A stretch of 64,000 nt of DNA from Archangium violaceum. Its GTDB lineage: Bacteria; Myxococcota; Myxococcia; Myxococcales; Myxococcaceae. The stretch covers positions 11,721,501 to 11,785,500 of the forward strand of contig NZ_CP069338.1 in the NCBI RefSeq assembly GCF_016859125.1, written 5' to 3'. The notes under the pieces were generated by a model. It saw only the letters and a program-made list of their open reading frames with translations, was not told the origin of the DNA and made no database searches. Position 1 is the first letter of the stretch; each line of letters opens with the position of its first letter. Shown piece after piece: positions 721 to 25,143 of this stretch. The position numbers and the translations under genes are program-made.

Positions 721-2532
721 TCACCGGGAGCGCGTCGCGCCAGCGCGGGTCCTGGCCACCCAGGCTTCGACCCGCTGCTCGAGGATGTCCAGAGGGAGTG
801 ATCCGTCGAGCAGCACCACGTCGTGGAACTCGCGAACGTCGAAGCGCTCGCCCAGCGCACGCTCGGCACGCGAACGCAGCTCCCGGATCTGGAGCTGCCC
901 CACCTTGTAGGCCAGCGCCTGTCCCGGCCAGGCGATGTACCGGTCGATCTCGTTGACGACATCCAATTCCTGGCGCGGCGAGTGCTCCAGGAAGTAGTCG
1001 ATGGCCTGCTGCCGGCTCCAGCGCCGGGCATGCATGCCCGTGTCCACCACCAGCCGGACGGCGCGCCACATGTCGTAGGCCAGCTGGCCGAACTTGTCGT
1101 ACGGGTCATCGTACAAGCCGAGCTCGTCCCCCAGGGTCTCGCAGTACAGGGCCCAGCCCTCACCGTAGGCCACGTGGTAGCCATAACGACGGAACTCGGG
1201 GAGGTGGCTCTGCTCGGCGGCGAGTGACGTCTGGAGATGATGCCCGGGCACGGCCTCGTGCAACGTGAGGGGGATCATCTCCCAGACGGGCCGTGTCTCG
1301 GGACGGTAGAGATTCACGAGATAGGTGCCCGGGCGGGAACCATCGGACGCGGCGGGGTAGTAGAAGCCGGTGGTGACATCCGGAGCCATGGCGGCCGGGG
1401 TCGGCTCCACGCCATAGGGCTGCCGCGGCAGGGTCTTGAACAGCTTCACCAGCAGCGGGTCGATCCGCTTGGAGAGGCCGCGATACCGCAGCAGCAGCTC
1501 CTCCCCGCTCTTGCAATAGAACCGCGGCTCCGTGCGCAGGAAGCGGAAGAACTCGTGGAGCGAGCCCTGGAAGCCCGCCTTCGCCTTCACCGCCTCCATC
1601 TCGGCACGGATGCGCTGGACCTCGGCGAGCCCGAGCTCGTGGACCTGATCCGGGCTCAGCTTCGTCGTCGTGTACTTGCGGGTGAAGAAACCATACATCT
1701 CCGGGCCCTCCGGCAATTGCCAGATGCCCACCTGCTCGGGCGCGGCGGGGATGTACTCGCCCGTCAGGAACCGGTGGAAGCGCGTGAGCGCCGGCAGTAC
1801 CCCGTTCGCGATGGCGGCGCGGCCCGCGGTGGACAAGCGCCGCTGCTCGGCCGGGGAGATGCTGGAGGGGAAGCGCGTGAAGGGGCTGTAGAACCCGCTC
1901 TTCGTGGGGTCTTCCACCCGTTGCTTCTCGAGCTGGGGCGGGATGCGGCGCAGGATGACCTGGGGATGCATGCGGCGCTCGCGCATTCCCTCACGCATGA
2001 GCATGATGATCTGATCCACGTACGTGGAGAAGCCGCCGAGACGGGTGATCCACTCCTCGTAGTCCTTCGTCGTCGCGAAGCGCAGCGTGTCGGCGAGCTG
2101 GTAGGCCGTCTGGATGCCTGGAGGCTGTTTGATTCCCTCCGGAATGCTCCCTACCTGGTTCGTCGGCAGCAGGTACCACTTGTACCGGTGCTCCTCGACC
2201 CACGTCTCGTAATCGCGGCGGAACAGGTCGTAGTCGAGCTGGTCTTCCGCCGAGAGCTTCTTGCGATCCAACTTCGCGAGCTGCGCGAGGACCTGGAGGT
2301 TGTGCTGGTGGTCCGCCTCGATGGCGGCGAGGCTGAGATCGTCCCAGCGGTCATTCCAGCGGCGGTCACCCAGCACCGACGCATAGGTCGGGCTGTGCTC
2401 CAGCTGGTACTGCCATTCCCGGGCGATCAGCGCCTGGAGTGAGGTCGCGGCAACGTTCTTCTTGTTCGCCTCCGCGGTGAGGGGGAGTGTCGCGATGATT
2501 CCCACGGCGAGCCGCCGGACTGCTTGCAGCAT
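721..2532 (-). CDS. secreted DUF885 family protein (putative zinc peptidase)
   Basis: A 603-residue protein of the DUF885 family. The ATG at 2532 is chosen because it opens a hydrophobic signal peptide (MLQAVRRLAVGIIATLPLTAEA) and has an AGAGAGGA ribosome-binding site about 6 bases upstream; the frame itself stays open about 150 bases further upstream but without signal-like sequence. The family signature HEAVPGHHLQ lies near residue 430, with a downstream GEGWALYCE stretch that would supply a second metal ligand, so a gluzincin-like zinc peptidase activity is likely. Substrate is unknown. The predicted location is periplasmic or extracellular. It is divergent from the kinase fusion that starts at 2766 and converges end to end with the glucosaminidase gene. 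Confidence 0.88.
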   Translation of the reverse strand: MLQAVRRLAVGIIATLPLTAEANKKNVAATSLQALIAREWQYQLEHSPTYASVLGDRRWNDRWDDLSLAAIEADHQHNLQVLAQLAKLDRKKLSAEDQLDYDLFRRDYETWVEEHRYKWYLLPTNQVGSIPEGIKQPPGIQTAYQLADTLRFATTKDYEEWITRLGGFSTYVDQIIMLMREGMRERRMHPQVILRRIPPQLEKQRVEDPTKSGFYSPFTRFPSSISPAEQRRLSTAGRAAIANGVLPALTRFHRFLTGEYIPAAPEQVGIWQLPEGPEMYGFFTRKYTTTKLSPDQVHELGLAEVQRIRAEMEAVKAKAGFQGSLHEFFRFLRTEPRFYCKSGEELLLRYRGLSKRIDPLLVKLFKTLPRQPYGVEPTPAAMAPDVTTGFYYPAASDGSRPGTYLVNLYRPETRPVWEMIPLTLHEAVPGHHLQTSLAAEQSHLPEFRRYGYHVAYGEGWALYCETLGDELGLYDDPYDKFGQLAYDMWRAVRLVVDTGMHARRWSRQQAIDYFLEHSPRQELDVVNEIDRYIAWPGQALAYKVGQLQIRELRSRAERALGERFDVREFHDVVLLDGSLPLDILEQRVEAWVARTRAGATRSR

Positions 2533-2765
2533 GGATCGTCCTCTCTGAAGCGCGAGCCTACCCCACCCCCGTGCCGGGGACTTGGGAGACAGGCTTCGAA
2601 CGTGCGCGCGCCTCGCCGGATGGCTCCCCTCTTCCAGCCTCGCCCGGCCTCGATGTTGCCCCAGCGAGAGGCCATGCACATGTCCTGAGAATGGGGCGAT
2701 CCCCGGCTTCTCCGGCGCCAGCCAGGCACGAGGAGTGGCGCGAGCCCCTCTCGAGGCAGCCGAGG

Positions 2766-5700
2766 ATGGATTCGATTCAAGACGACATGGACTTCGGGGA
2801 CTCCTTGCTGGAGGAGGTCGTGGGCACCGATCCCTGGCTGGCCAGTCCCGTCCCTGGAGAGAAGCTGGGGGGCCCGGATGGCCGGCGGTTCGAGATCCAA
2901 CTGGCGCTGGGCCGCGGCTCCATGGGCGAGGTGTTCCAGGCCTGGGACGCGGAGCTGCAGCGCGAGGTGGCGCTCAAATTCCTGAACCCGCAGACCATGT
3001 CGCTCGGGAGCCGGGTCACCGAACTGCTCCAACAGGAGGCCCGGGCCATTGCCCGATTGAACCACGAGAACATCGTCCGCCTCTTCGACGTGGCCGAGTG
3101 GCGCGTCGAGCACGGAGAGCAGCGCGTGCTCTTCCTGGTGATGGAGTACCTGGAGGGCGAGTCGCTTTCGGCGCGGCTGCACCGGGGCCGGCTGGAGCTG
3201 AAGCAGGCGATGACGATCATGGAAGGAGTGGCCGCGGGCCTCGCTCACGCGCACCAGCGACACCTCATCCACCGGGATCTCAAGCCCGCCAACGTCTTCA
3301 TCACCCGCGAGGAGACGGTGAAGCTCCTGGACTTCGGCCTGGCCCACCTCGTGGCGAGCACCCTGCCCCTGCCGGACATGTCCACGGCGGGCACTCCCTT
3401 GTACATGGCACCCGAGCAATGGTTGGGCAGGCCCCAGGACGAGCGGACCGATGTGTGGGCAGCGGGGTTGCTGCTCTACGAGCTGCTGACCGGCAAGCGG
3501 CCCTTCTCCACCCTCTGTGCCGAGGAGCTCCGTGCCCGGGTGATCTCCGCGGAGCCCGTGCCCTCGGTACGCGCGCTCCGCCCGGAATTGTCGCGGGAGC
3601 TGGAGCAACTGGTCGCCACGGCCCTGGCCAAGGACCCGGCCCGGCGCATTCCCTCGGGGCAGGAGTTGCTGGAGGAGCTGCGCGAGGTGAGCGAGCACCT
3701 CGGGCTGCGTCGCGAGCAGGGGCAGACCTCCGTCGCCCAGCGTCGACAGGTGACGCTGGTGTGCTGCGTACCGCTCGGACTCCCGGCGGCGCTCGACCCC
3801 GAGGACTTCGATGAGCTGGAGGCCGCCTTCCGCGAGACCTGTGCGGAGCTCCTCGGCCATCACGGCGGCTCGCTCACGCCCTCCATGGGAGCCCAGGTGC
3901 TGGCCTGCTTCGGCTATCCCCAGGCCCAGGAGGAGGATTCCAGGAACGCCGTCCACGCGGCAATGCTCCTGGCCCGGGACTTCCCCCGGATGCTCCAGCG
4001 GAAGCTGCCGCGCCCGTTCTCGCGAGGGCTCTCCATGGGGGTGGGCATCCACACGGACAGGGTGGCCCTGCACGAGAGCGCGGGGGGGCCCGTCCTCTCG
4101 GGAGATGCGCCCGAGGTGGTCGCCTGGCTGGCCCGGCAGGCCGAGCCCGGCACGGTGCTCCTCAGCGAGGCCACCCGGACCCTGGTGCGCGGTGCCTTCG
4201 AAATGGAGCCGCTCGGGACACGGCGTCCCACGGGAGCACCGGCCGCCCGCCCGGTACGGGTGTTCCGGGCGCTGAGCGAGCGCAAGACCCGGTCCCGCTT
4301 CGAGCGGATGCACGCGGCCTTCGGGCTGACACCGCTGGTCGGGCGCGAGCGGGAGCTGCGGGAGGTGCTCGAGCTGTGGGCGAGTGCCCGGCGGGGACAG
4401 GGCACCGCCGTCCTTCTTCGCGGCGAGGCGGGCCTGGGGAAGTCCCGCCTCATCCACGAGGTACGGGAGCGGGTGGCTTCCGAGGCGGACTGTCGCCTGA
4501 ATGCCCAGTGCGGCGCCCCGTTCTCCTCCAGCGCGCTGTATCCCGTCATCGACCTGCTCCAGCGCCTGCTCGAGGATTCACGCCCGGAAGGCGCCTCCCC
4601 CGGAGCTCCGCGCGGGCTGGAGCCACGACTGCGCGCGCTCGGCCTCTCGGCCGAGCACCTGCAGGCGCTCGTCTCGCTCCTGTCCCTCCCGCCCATGGAG
4701 ACACTGCCCTCCACCCAGCTGACGCCGGAGCGGCAGAAGTCACTGGTGTTCGACGCCCTGGCCATCCTGCTGCGGGGCCTGGCTCGCGAGCGACCGGTGC
4801 TGGTCGTGGTGGAGGATCTGCACTGGGCGGATCCCTCCACCCTGGAGCTCCTGGTCTGGCTGCACGAGTCGGTGAGTCAGTCCCGGGTGTTGCTGCTCCT
4901 CAGCAGCCGCGCCGAGCCGCGCGATGCCGCGCCGCGATGGCCCGGCCTCCACATCCTCTCGCTGGAGCGACTGTCCGAGAAACACACCCAGGTGTTGGTG
5001 CGGGAGGCGGCCCGGGGCCGGGTCCTGACATCGGGAGTGATGCGGCAACTCGTGAAGAGGACGGAGGGCGTTCCACTCTTCGCGGAGGAGCTGACGCGCA
5101 TGATGTTGGAGCGGCAGGCCGCTGGAGACGTGTCCTCCTCCATTCCCTCGAGCCTGCACGAGCTGCTGCTCGCGCGTCTGGACGCGCTCCCTCCCCGGCA
5201 GAAGATGCTGGCGCAGCTCTGCTCGGTGATGGGACGAAGCTTCTCGAGTGCCCTGGTGGCGGCCCTCACGCATCAATCCGAGGCCGCGAGGATCCGCGAT
5301 CTGGAGGGGCTGGTCTCCGCGGGCATCCTGGAGCAGGAGGGGCCGGACGAGGAGCTGGCGGAGTACCGGTTCCGGCACGCCCTCATCCAGGAGGCGGCCT
5401 ATCAATCGCTGCTGCGCGGCACCCGGCGCGAGTACCACCAGCGCATCGCCCTGGTGCTGGAGGAGTCCTTCCCCGAGCTGGCGGAGGCCCATCCGGAGTT
5501 GCTGGCCCACCACTACACGGAAGCGGCCTGGCACACGCAGGCCCTCCTCTGGTGGACTCGCGCCGGTGCACATGCCAGTCAGCGCTCGGCCCACCAGGAG
5601 GCGATTGAACACCTCACGCGGGCGCTGAACCTGCTGCGGACCCTTCCGGACGCGGGCCAGCGCCAGGGCGAGGAGCTGCGGCTCCTGATGACGCTGGGCA

Positions 5701-20820: not shown

Positions 20821-23439
20821 GTGCGTACGCCAACCGACCGCTATCTGCCGCCCGACCATGACGCCTTCATCTCCGCCGAGCCACCGACGGGGCGCGTCAT
20901 CGTCATCGCCCCCACTCGCGCGGCGTGCGAGACGATCGAGCTCGCGCTCGGGCTGAACCTCGAGACCTACCTCGAGAAGCACCACGGGCCGCGAGTGCGC
21001 GAGCTGGCCCGCGAGGGCAAGGGCTTCGGTATCGTGGCCGGAACGGGGACGGGAAAGACGCTCGCCATCCGGCTCATCGCCGAGGAGCTCGTCGGCCAGG
21101 GAGGCGCGGCCCCGCTCAGGGTCGGCGTGGTGAACCGCGAGCGCGAGGCGACGCCCGACACCCCCTCCTGGAACGTCATCATCGTGACGACCGGCATCGC
21201 GCGGCGCTGGTTCCAGAACGGCGACATCCTGCCGCACGACACGCTCGTCATCGACGAAATCCACCAGACGTCGGCGGAGCTCGAGCTCTGCCTCGCGCTC
21301 GGCAAGCGCGTGGGCTGTCGCTTCATCTGGCTCTCCGCCACCGTCGACCCGGCGCTCTACGCGCGCTACCTGAACAGCGTTGACGTGCTCGAGGTCCGGG
21401 CATTCGATCCGCGGAAGGTGGCCACCGTCGTGGTCGAGGACAGACAACCGCTCGCGTTCCTCGACGAGGCGTTCCTCCGCGCCGTGGAGCAGGAGCAACG
21501 CGGGGTGGGCCTCTTCCTCCCCACGCGCGCGGCGGTCGAGCAGGCGGCACTGCACGTACGCACTCTCTGGCCGAGCATCCACGCGGCGTACTACCACGGC
21601 GGGGAGCCCATACGTGTCATCCGGCCGTTCCTCGAGGGAACGGCGAGCCGACCCTACGTCATCGCCATGACGGCCGCGGGACAGAGCGCACTCAACGTCC
21701 AGGGGCTCGACACCATCGTCATCGATGACACGCGCTTCGCCAATCTCGTCGAGCGCGGGCGCAACGTGCTCACGCGCGTCCACCTCGGGAACAACGAGCT
21801 GCTCCAGATGGCCGGGCGGGTGCACGGCCGCGTGGAGGGCGGGCGCGTCTTCATCCTGAGCAACCGCGACATCGACTTCTTCGCCCTCCAGCCGACGGAG
21901 CCCGAGTTCCAGCTCGCTGGCGACCCGGAGCGCGTGGCGCTCACCGCCGCGGCCCTCGGCGTGAGGGCCGATGAGCTGGACCTCCCCGTGCCGCTCGACC
22001 GCATCGCCTATCGCCGCGTGTTCCAGCGGCTGCGGGAGCGCAACATCGTCGACGAGCGGGGACGGCTCTCGCCCTACGGTCGCGCGGTCGAGGCCCTCCC
22101 CGTGGAGCGGGCCTGGGCGGAGTTGATCGTCAACGCGGAGGACGCACTGCTCCCCTTCCTCGCCGTGTGCAGCGCGATCGAGTCGCTCCATCGCATGACG
22201 CGTGAGGAGCGCGACCTGGAGGGGGTACTCGTCGCCGGGAGCGATCACCTCACCGCCTACAACCTCTACGCCGACGCTTACCGCGAGGCGGGCTTCATGG
22301 GAGAGGTGTACGGACTCACGCGCCACCTGTTCCACCCGGAGAAGGTGGAGCGCTGGGCCGAGCGGCGTGGCGTGCTGGTGAAGGCCATCGAGGACGCGGC
22401 GCTGGTGATGGCGAGTGTCTATCGGAGCGTGGGCGCCAGCCTGCCCGAGCACATGCCATTCGCGGAGGAGCCCGTACACCGCCGCTTCGCCGACCTGCTC
22501 GCGTGCTTCATGCCCTTCGACCTCGTCATCGACGAGCGGACGGCCTCGGGCGAACAGGCTCGCGTCGCGAAGACGAGCGTGTGCGGAAGCTGGGGCGCGG
22601 TGGCGGGGATGCTCCGCTACTTCGCCGACCGCTCCGGTACGCAGCATGCGTCCATCGAGGGCACGCACATCCCGCTCGACGTGCTGAGGAAGTACGCGCG
22701 TCGCACCGATGCCGAGCTCGTCTACGACTCGTGGCACATGTCGCTCGTGCTCGACTGGCGCGTGGAATACTCCGGCTTCGAACTGGAGCGCGAGGTCGAG
22801 GTGCTCCGCGCGTGGGGGCCGGAGCTGGCCGACCGCGCACGCCACGCGCTCGCGGAGGCGATGGCACGTGGCGAGGCCGAGCACCCGGCGGTGCGCCGCA
22901 ACCAGCCGGCGATCGATGAAGTGCGCGAGCTGTGGCGCCGCTCGGGCGGACGCACGGCGAAGCTCGGAGTGCCGGAGTTGACCGCCCTCTACGAAGAACG
23001 ACTCGAGGGGGTTACCACGATGGACGAGTTCCACGCGCGCCCGCTGACGCTCGACCTGGACGCACTGGTGCCGCCCGAGACACGCGAGGAGCTGCTGTCG
23101 TTGCCGGACGAGGTGTTCATCCGCGACCGGGAGGTGGAGCTGGACTACGAGGTGGAGCAGGACGAGGCGGGGCAACCCGTCGGTGTGGTACGGCTCCACC
23201 TGCCTGAGAAGCTCGCACGCACGCTCGTGGAGGAGGAGCTTCCGCTGTTCGACCGGCCGGTGCGCTTCGTCGTGGGCCGCGGCCGGCGTGGTGCCCTGCG
23301 CGCCAACACGCTGCTCGAGTTGCAGGAGCTCCTCGACCTGCCGTGGATGCCCGACGAGCTCGAGGCAGCGCGCGACGAAGGCGGCGGTGGACGAGCCGGG
23401 CGGGGCAAGGGGGCCCGGCGCCCGAAGCCTCGTCAATGA
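20821..23439 (+). CDS. HrpA/HrpB-like DExH-box helicase
   Basis: An 872-residue protein starting at a GTG; no strong ribosome-binding site is visible. Superfamily 2 motifs occur in order: I GTGTGKT (about 75-81), II DEIH (about 145), III SAT, and a motif VI region QMAGRVHGR instead of the usual QRxGRxGR. The region after the helicase core is helical like the winged-helix/ratchet part of HrpB-type RNA helicases, and the tail is Gly/Arg/Lys-rich (GGGGRAGRGKGARRPKPR), suited to binding RNA. It therefore probably unwinds RNA or remodels RNP. It is not a close match to canonical HrpB, as the N-terminus is unusual and motif VI diverges. The last 7 bases overlap the end of the converging hflX. Confidence 0.8.
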   Translation: MRTPTDRYLPPDHDAFISAEPPTGRVIVIAPTRAACETIELALGLNLETYLEKHHGPRVRELAREGKGFGIVAGTGTGKTLAIRLIAEELVGQGGAAPLRVGVVNREREATPDTPSWNVIIVTTGIARRWFQNGDILPHDTLVIDEIHQTSAELELCLALGKRVGCRFIWLSATVDPALYARYLNSVDVLEVRAFDPRKVATVVVEDRQPLAFLDEAFLRAVEQEQRGVGLFLPTRAAVEQAALHVRTLWPSIHAAYYHGGEPIRVIRPFLEGTASRPYVIAMTAAGQSALNVQGLDTIVIDDTRFANLVERGRNVLTRVHLGNNELLQMAGRVHGRVEGGRVFILSNRDIDFFALQPTEPEFQLAGDPERVALTAAALGVRADELDLPVPLDRIAYRRVFQRLRERNIVDERGRLSPYGRAVEALPVERAWAELIVNAEDALLPFLAVCSAIESLHRMTREERDLEGVLVAGSDHLTAYNLYADAYREAGFMGEVYGLTRHLFHPEKVERWAERRGVLVKAIEDAALVMASVYRSVGASLPEHMPFAEEPVHRRFADLLACFMPFDLVIDERTASGEQARVAKTSVCGSWGAVAGMLRYFADRSGTQHASIEGTHIPLDVLRKYARRTDAELVYDSWHMSLVLDWRVEYSGFELEREVEVLRAWGPELADRARHALAEAMARGEAEHPAVRRNQPAIDEVRELWRRSGGRTAKLGVPELTALYEERLEGVTTMDEFHARPLTLDLDALVPPETREELLSLPDEVFIRDREVELDYEVEQDEAGQPVGVVRLHLPEKLARTLVEEELPLFDRPVRFVVGRGRRGALRANTLLELQELLDLPWMPDELEAARDEGGGGRAGRGKGARRPKPRQ

Positions 23440-25130
23440 TGAGGATGCGGCTCATCCTGGATGGAGACACCGCTGGTCGTGAGCGACTTGCCCTCGCGCC
23501 ATAGCAGCTCCTCGACCCGGTGGAGGAGCTCCGTCAACCCCTCTCCCGTCTCCGCGCTGATCGGGATGCCATCCCGGGCCTGCGCGGTGGAGTGGGCCAC
23601 ATACCCATCCACGCCCCCTTCGAGGAGCTCGCTCTTGTTGTAGACGAGCAGGCGCGGCAGTTCGTGCAGGTCGAGGCTCCTGAGGATGCGCTCGACGGCC
23701 TCGATCTGCTGCGGATGCTCCGGGTCCGAAGCATCCACCACGTGGAGGAGCAGGTCGGCATCGGTGAGCTCCTCGAGCGTGGCGCGGAAGGCATTCACCA
23801 GCGTCCGGGGCAGCTCGCGGATGAAGCCCACCGTGTCGGTGATGATCACCTCGCGATCGCGTGGGAAGCGCAACCTCCGGCTGCTCGGATCCAGCGTGGC
23901 GAACAGCTTGTTCTCCGCCACGACGTCCGAGTTCGTCAGCCGGTTGAGGAGCGTGGACTTGCCTGCGTTCGTGTAGCCGACGATCGAGATGACCGGCACT
24001 TCGTGCCGTGCACGCTGCTGGCGGCGGACCTGCCGGCTGGCGCTCAGCGCGTCGATTCGCTTCTCGAGCATCGTGATGCGATCGCGCACGCGACGACGAT
24101 CGATCTCGAGCTTCGTCTCGCCAGGACCTCGTCCGCCAATGCCGCCCGCGAGCCGGGAGAGGCCTTCATCCCGCTGGGCGAGGCGCGGCAGCCTGTACCT
24201 GAGCTGGGCGAGCTCGACCTGCAACCGGCCCTCCGCGGTGTGCGCGTGCTGAGCGAAGATGTCGAGGATGAGCTGGGTGCGGTCCAGCACCTTCAGGTTC
24301 GTATGGTCGGCGATGTGCCGGGCCTGGGACGGCGTCATGTCGTGGTCGAAGATGATCGTGTCCGCGAACAGCTGCATCGCCCGGAGGTTCAGCTCCTCGA
24401 GCTTCCCTCGACCGATGACGAAGCGAGGATCGATCTTCGTCCGCGTCTGGATGAATGTGTCGAGGACATGGACACCGGCCGTGCGAGCCAGCTCCTTCAA
24501 TTCGGCCATCGAGGCATCTGCCTGCCTGCGGTCGTCGGTCGCGACACCGACGAGAATGGCGCGCCCCTGGGTGGCGATTTCCCGGCCGGCGATCGAGCGG
24601 CCGAAAGCAGCCTCGATCTCCTCGGCCCTGGCCACGGGATCGAAATCGAGCCCATGGACGTCATCGACCATCTCGGTCTTCCAGAACTTCGCGCGCTCGC
24701 CGGTCGCCTCGGGATCGAGGTAACCGAGGTAGACCCTACCCGGAAGACCCTCGGGCCGTGTCACGATCGCACAGACGAGGTCGAGCCGGAGCAGGACGAG
24801 ATCGGTGAGGTCGTCGGGCGTGAGAGGCTCGTCCTTCAAATGGGTGTGGACGAGACGCAGCCCGCGCAGACGCGTGTCACCCGCGCGGACGCGCCCCATC
24901 TCGGGAAGCTCCAGCTTGGACGCATCCCCCACGATGACGTGCTCGATGTCACCGCGCCGGTTGATGAGCGCCCCCACCTGTCGGCTTATCTCGAGGGAGA
25001 GCTCGGTAAGGTGGCGAGCGAGCTCGGGACTCGTCACCTCTTCGGGTCGTACCCGGCGACGGTAGGTCGCCTCCAGACGCTTCAACTGACTCGGCTTGAG
25101 TCCCGGGGTATTTCCGCTGATGGGAGGAAT
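23433..25130 (-). CDS. hflX: GTPase HflX
   Basis: A ribosome-associated GTPase that splits stalled 70S ribosomes after stress. It has the HflX N-terminal domain (with GRGKLEEL and FDHDMTPSQARH), the glycine-rich linker GGIGGRGPGETKLE, and a G domain with G1 GYTNAGKST, G3 DTVGFIRELP, G4 NKSE and G5 SAE. The first conventional start in frame is a TTG at 25085, giving 550 residues. However, the 15 preceding codons read IPPISGNTPGLKPSQ, matching my memory of myxobacterial HflX N-termini (SGNTxGLKxxQL). The frame closes upstream at a TGA with no ATG, GTG or TTG between. An AAGGAG site sits 7 bases before an ATT codon at 25130, so an AUU start is proposed, giving 565 residues. Confidence 0.9.
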   Translation of the reverse strand: MPPISGNTPGLKPSQLKRLEATYRRRVRPEEVTSPELARHLTELSLEISRQVGALINRRGDIEHVIVGDASKLELPEMGRVRAGDTRLRGLRLVHTHLKDEPLTPDDLTDLVLLRLDLVCAIVTRPEGLPGRVYLGYLDPEATGERAKFWKTEMVDDVHGLDFDPVARAEEIEAAFGRSIAGREIATQGRAILVGVATDDRRQADASMAELKELARTAGVHVLDTFIQTRTKIDPRFVIGRGKLEELNLRAMQLFADTIIFDHDMTPSQARHIADHTNLKVLDRTQLILDIFAQHAHTAEGRLQVELAQLRYRLPRLAQRDEGLSRLAGGIGGRGPGETKLEIDRRRVRDRITMLEKRIDALSASRQVRRQQRARHEVPVISIVGYTNAGKSTLLNRLTNSDVVAENKLFATLDPSSRRLRFPRDREVIITDTVGFIRELPRTLVNAFRATLEELTDADLLLHVVDASDPEHPQQIEAVERILRSLDLHELPRLLVYNKSELLEGGVDGYVAHSTAQARDGIPISAETGEGLTELLHRVEELLWREGKSLTTSGVSIQDEPHPHH

Positions 25131-25143
25131 TGTCGCTCTCCTT
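25128..25143 (-). promoter_or_regulatory. ribosome-binding site and proposed AUU start of hflX
   Basis: On the minus strand AAGGAG (25143-25138) is followed after seven bases by an ATT codon (25130-25128) in frame with hflX. By contrast, the TTG at 25085 is preceded by coding-like sequence and no purine-rich site. AUU starts are known in infC and pcnB of Escherichia coli, where they limit or regulate expression. Here it is inferred. Confidence 0.5.

Follow-up and report, generated by a model that had tools for sequence, protein, structure and literature searches.

AUU, AUC and AUA start codons in long-form hflX genes, including a second hflX copy of Archangium violaceum

HflX is a GTPase that splits stalled ribosomes. 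The second copy of the gene for its long form in Archangium violaceum, here denoted hflX2, almost certainly starts at AUU, a very rare start codon, and there is hardly any doubt that starts of this kind (AUU, AUC or AUA, collectively AUH) are a widespread trait of long hflX genes. The explanation that best accounts for the observations, and one that we consider quite likely to be correct, combines an AUU start supported by a strong Shine-Dalgarno (SD) sequence, membership of hflX2 in a set of hflX genes with AUH starts, and an HflX output tied to the level of IF3.

The hflX2 gene and its start region

The hflX2 gene was found in a stretch of 64,000 nucleotides of the A. violaceum genome (hereafter the window; positions 11,721,501 to 11,785,500 of NZ_CP069338.1), where it occupies positions 23433-25130 of the minus strand, with a TGA stop at 23435-23433. 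The 565 amino acid product belongs to the HflX GTPases, with a TIGR03156 score of 464.5 bits (cut-off 216.75) and with the HflX N-terminal, middle and G domains (PF13167, PF16360 and PF01926) all above the respective cut-offs. The genome (12.68 Mb, one contig) encodes another long HflX, hflX1 (C1:580457-582118; 64% identity to hflX2), as well as a third, shorter one. Close orthologues of hflX2 (E-value of 1e-230 or better) are present in 7 of the 96 genomes of the family, counting that of the window, and none was detected in the five other genomes of the genus that were searched; judging from this distribution, hflX2 is a patchy, accessory paralogue. A gene for a DEAD/DEAH-type helicase (872 aa; 20821-23439, plus strand) runs towards hflX2, and the 3' ends of the two convergent genes overlap by 7 nt. 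In C. sicarius, a helicase with 74% identity (L047:101-2650) is encoded directly upstream of hflX2, and in locus L046, hflX2 is followed by an EF-G-like gene (2353-4458), assigned from its N-terminal sequence. The helicase and EF-G-like neighbours suggest an accessory set of ribosome-related genes.

The hflX2 frame, read on the minus strand from the in-frame TGA at 25169-25167 (codon -13), runs ACG GAG CTG CAC GCT CCA CTC TCA AGG AGA GCG ACA and continues, after ATT at 25130-25128, with CCT CCC ATC AGC GGA AAT ACC CCG GGA CTC AAG CCG AGT CAG up to the TTG at 25085-25083, 15 codons after ATT. The original prediction had noted that no ATG, GTG or TTG lies between this TGA and TTG 25085 and that AAGGAG precedes ATT by seven bases, and both statements are borne out: the SD sequence is located at 25143-25138, with a spacer of 7 nt and a duplex energy of -8.0 kcal/mol. 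The conserved N-terminal motif GNTPGLKPSQ (25086-25115, minus strand) is encoded before the first canonical start and anchors the start position, so that no canonical start yields the conserved full-length protein. The AAGGAG-N7-ATT signature occurs 23 times in the 12.68-Mb genome, is unspecific and has no significance by itself; hence the evidence for the AUU start must come from comparison.

Alignment of the upstream regions in other myxobacteria, the check proposed along with the prediction, supplies this evidence. ATT and the SD sequence are retained in four orthologues, namely those of Corallococcus sp. CA053C, C. sicarius, Pyxidicoccus fallax and the genome of L126 (88% identity to hflX2 of the window), and C. 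exercitus and C. carmarthensis have ATG at this codon instead. Thus, five of the seven hflX2 genes, including that of the window, have ATT, and where this codon is not kept, another start codon takes its exact place; an ATG located a few bases away in relatives, which had been named as an argument against the AUU start, was not observed. The SD sequence, a few nucleotides before ATT, is AAGGAG, AAGGAGG or GAGGAGG in the ATT orthologues (-8.0 to -11.8 kcal/mol in the five genes) and AGGAAGG in the two ATG orthologues, where it is weaker (-6.5 kcal/mol), a difference that would fit compensation of the start codon by the SD. Furthermore, the window and L126 differ by a 1-nt indel immediately 5' of the SD; it breaks the frame and shows that the stretch upstream of the SD is non-coding in the hflX2 frame. 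In hflX1 of A. violaceum, the homologous first codon is TTG (TTG AAG GAA ATC TAC GGA AAC), and the main hflX1 of Myxococcaceae mostly starts with TTG, ATG or GTG, and in a few cases with CTG. The nearest relative outside hflX2, which comes from another family (L017, genome G041) and is the sister of hflX2 with a support of 99, has ATT as well, but this is not a strict case because its frame includes canonical codons further upstream (ATG at -18).

First codons across long hflX genes

For a broader survey, the first codon was placed with an HMM of the conserved HflX N-terminus in 254 distinct long HflX genes from Myxococcota genomes, from even draws from two phyla, represented by the Desulfarculaceae locus L057 and the Oscillospiraceae locus L072, and from the loci of the initial searches. 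The two phyla are treated as Desulfobacterota and Bacillota, respectively, names that depend on the titles of these two records and on how the search tool groups genomes. Codon 1 is AUH in 119 genes (ATC 53, ATT 49, ATA 17), canonical in 68 (ATG 32, TTG 25, GTG 11), CTG in 8 and some other codon in 59, many of which lie one to three codons from a start. The share of AUH at codon 1 amounts to 76 of 109 in the Desulfobacterota set, 29 of 69 in the broader Myxococcota set, 5 of 7 among hflX2 and 7 of 16 in other phyla (ATC in Entotheonella and Abyssobacteria, ATT or ATA in the rest); it is 0 of 29 among Myxococcaceae and order members and 2 of 24 in Bacillota, each with a TTG one codon before. 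Four Bacillota loci (L431, L433, L434 and L438) have ATA, ATT or ATC with an SD one codon earlier and no canonical start nearby; L437 has ATC one codon earlier too, but with GTG three codons further up. Whole groups are canonical, in particular, family f5 and most of the Myxococcaceae hflX1. The frame is free of ATG, GTG and TTG from the preceding stop up to codon +20 in 83 of the 254 genes, 75 of which have an AUH codon within positions -3 to +2; in several, the stop directly adjoins the AUH codon (for example, TAA ATC in L303 and TAA ATT in L308 and L329).

Several individual genes show further patterns. In the long hflX genes of L019, L020, L168, L173, L208, L228 and L229, the start position is occupied by CTG, preceded by an SD and mostly with no canonical start nearby. 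The hflX genes of L034 and L039, from the related family f7, may start at ACG (in the context ACG CGA GAC GAG or ACG CGA GAA GAA), with GGAG or GGAGG upstream. In a Desulfovibrionaceae hflX (L066:2989-2991), AAGGAG-N7-ATT is shifted upstream by one codon, and no canonical start precedes codon 21.

An SD match of at least 4 nt precedes 116 of the 119 AUH starts, mostly with an aligned spacing of 5 to 8. AUH starts have a median SD duplex energy of -8.4 kcal/mol. The corresponding median is -4.8 for hflX with canonical starts (p=1e-14 in a Mann-Whitney test) and -3.0 for 1523 AUH codons that lie in frame inside the same set of genes (p=2e-56); since the genes share ancestry, these p-values overstate independence. 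On the HflX tree (FastTree, approximately 190 residues after the start; no outgroup was included, so that no direction of change is claimed), AUH and non-AUH states change into one another 28 times, while shuffled states need 76 changes on average and at least 66; the AUH state is thus inherited, yet has been switched repeatedly.

As controls, we examined obg, which encodes a GTPase with a fixed N-terminus and starts with ATG or GTG in 30 of 30 cases (Myxococcota relatives only), and infC, the gene for IF3, which starts with AUC or AUU in all 29 readable Myxococcota relatives, including the genome of the window (read by eye), and with AUA in the genomes of L052, L057 and L066. Apart from hflX, infC is the sole gene examined here that shows the AUH pattern. 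A. violaceum has two infC copies (C1:9519596-9520096, plus strand, and C1:572605-573102, minus strand), the second of which is approximately 7 kb from hflX1; several other Myxococcaceae genomes among those searched also have two copies.

Alternative starts and possible control by IF3

Several observations bear on the reading that translation starts at a canonical codon elsewhere, either TTG 25085 or an upstream codon, with ATT an ordinary isoleucine codon. TTG 25085 is the choice of a standard gene caller, but its position is not conserved (CTC, CTG and TTC in three orthologues), it has no conserved SD and it would cut off the conserved GN..GLKPSQ motif; moreover, many relatives have a stop shortly upstream and no canonical codon from there to codon +20, and the two orthologues with ATG have it precisely at the ATT position. 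This reading is therefore very improbable. Even less credible is an apparent change of ATG to ATT through a sequencing or assembly error, a caveat of the original prediction, given that ATT recurs in independent assemblies of five species and AUH in more than 100 other genes. Other candidates were rejected as well: the single CTG in the hflX2 frame, 10 codons upstream of ATT; and the ATC at codon 4, for which the SD spacing would be 16 nt and whose equivalent in hflX1 is an internal ATC behind TTG. We also dismissed a leader hairpin just upstream of the hflX2 SD (GGAGC..GCTCC, in some orthologues): there is no consistent fold in the seven leaders, with folding z-scores of -0.5 to +0.8 in the orthologues and -2.8 in the window itself. 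Thus, the prediction that hflX starts at AUU holds.

It is well established that IF3 destabilises initiation complexes on AUU, AUC and AUA. Under the explanation that we favour, hflX2 would be translated from AUU 25130, guided by its strong SD, as one of a wide set of long-form hflX genes that hold an AUH start in the way infC does. With IF3 discriminating against AUH codons in the P site, synthesis of HflX would be low when IF3 is ample and would rise when IF3 is short relative to the 30S subunits, so that a ribosome-splitting factor would be coupled to the same sensor that sets IF3. The infC gene of E. coli is autoregulated by IF3 (Butler et al. 1987, as cited in PMC1780047), and HflX, which splits 70S ribosomes, has been cross-linked to a region of the 30S subunit very similar to the IF3 site (PMC4770234). 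By analogy, IF3-dependent control of hflX in vivo seems moderately probable. The occurrence of AUH starts in several phyla, together with the AUH start of infC, strengthens the idea of initiation-fidelity control put forward in the original prediction, although this control is still an inference. Given the 28 start switches and the groups with canonical starts (f5 and most Myxococcaceae hflX1), such control would not be indispensable.

The main competing explanation accepts AUH as the true start but holds that it only limits HflX output, as in pcnB, an excess of the splitting GTPase being harmful, without sensing of IF3 or of initiation fidelity. In pcnB, the AUU codon is known to keep expression in check, and the conserved AUU or AUA starts of S. 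aureus cvfC1, ccpN and citZ give approximately 10% of the reporter expression from AUG, the infC start being AUA (PMC13009471); the weak SDs of canonical-start hflX could represent another route to low output. In a related vein, the strong SD may merely offset the weak start, resulting in ordinary expression and no regulation. However, the unusually strong SDs of AUH genes would be odd if low output alone were selected, which is a mild argument, and infC of the same genomes has the same design. We consider output limitation alone a real possibility, albeit a rather doubtful one.

Returning to control through IF3, the shared AUH start of hflX and infC hints at joint control of the two genes. 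That HflX and IF3 constitute an ancient start-codon regulon with a physiological use, as the AUH starts of both across several phyla might indicate, is a tentative proposition to which we give somewhat less than an even chance. If it is true, a shortage of IF3 relative to 30S would raise both a ribosome-splitting and an anti-association factor, and start-codon discrimination would act as a sensor of the free-subunit pool.

Relation to known genes with AUH starts

To our knowledge, only a handful of bacterial genes are known to use AUH starts. The closest parallel is infC, which, like hflX, combines an AUH start with an SD, is conserved in this respect over phyla, and encodes a factor acting on free 30S subunits; the two are different genes with different products, and autoregulation by IF3 has been shown for E. 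coli infC, whereas control of hflX by IF3 is a proposal. E. coli pcnB and S. aureus cvfC1 and ccpN similarly have a non-canonical AUU or AUA start with an output below that of AUG, and the two S. aureus genes share a strong or extended SD with AUH-start hflX (PMC13009471), but the functions of all three are unrelated and their reported taxonomic range is narrower. Ribosome-associated GTPases reported to need AUU for the full-length product resemble hflX but are isolated cases, not a family trait. Listeria hflXr, like hflX2, is a second hflX copy, with expression under ribosome-linked control, but this control involves transcription attenuation via a leader peptide, whereas the distinctive feature of hflX2 is its start codon (PMC6310831).

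In the open-access literature, we found no report of an hflX with an AUU, AUA or other non-canonical start (subscription papers were outside the scope of the search). Hence hflX belongs with infC and pcnB among the AUH-start genes, as a widespread and apparently so far unreported member; the class of mechanism is already known, and the membership of hflX and its breadth appear to be new. The AUH trait may be hidden in public annotation because gene callers limited to ATG, GTG and TTG must truncate or misplace the N-termini of AUH-start HflX proteins. With more than 100 sampled species in several phyla, AUH-start hflX would be the broadest case after infC, in a gene for a factor whose reported contact on the 30S subunit is near the IF3 site, and would connect initiation fidelity to ribosome rescue directly and in a testable way.
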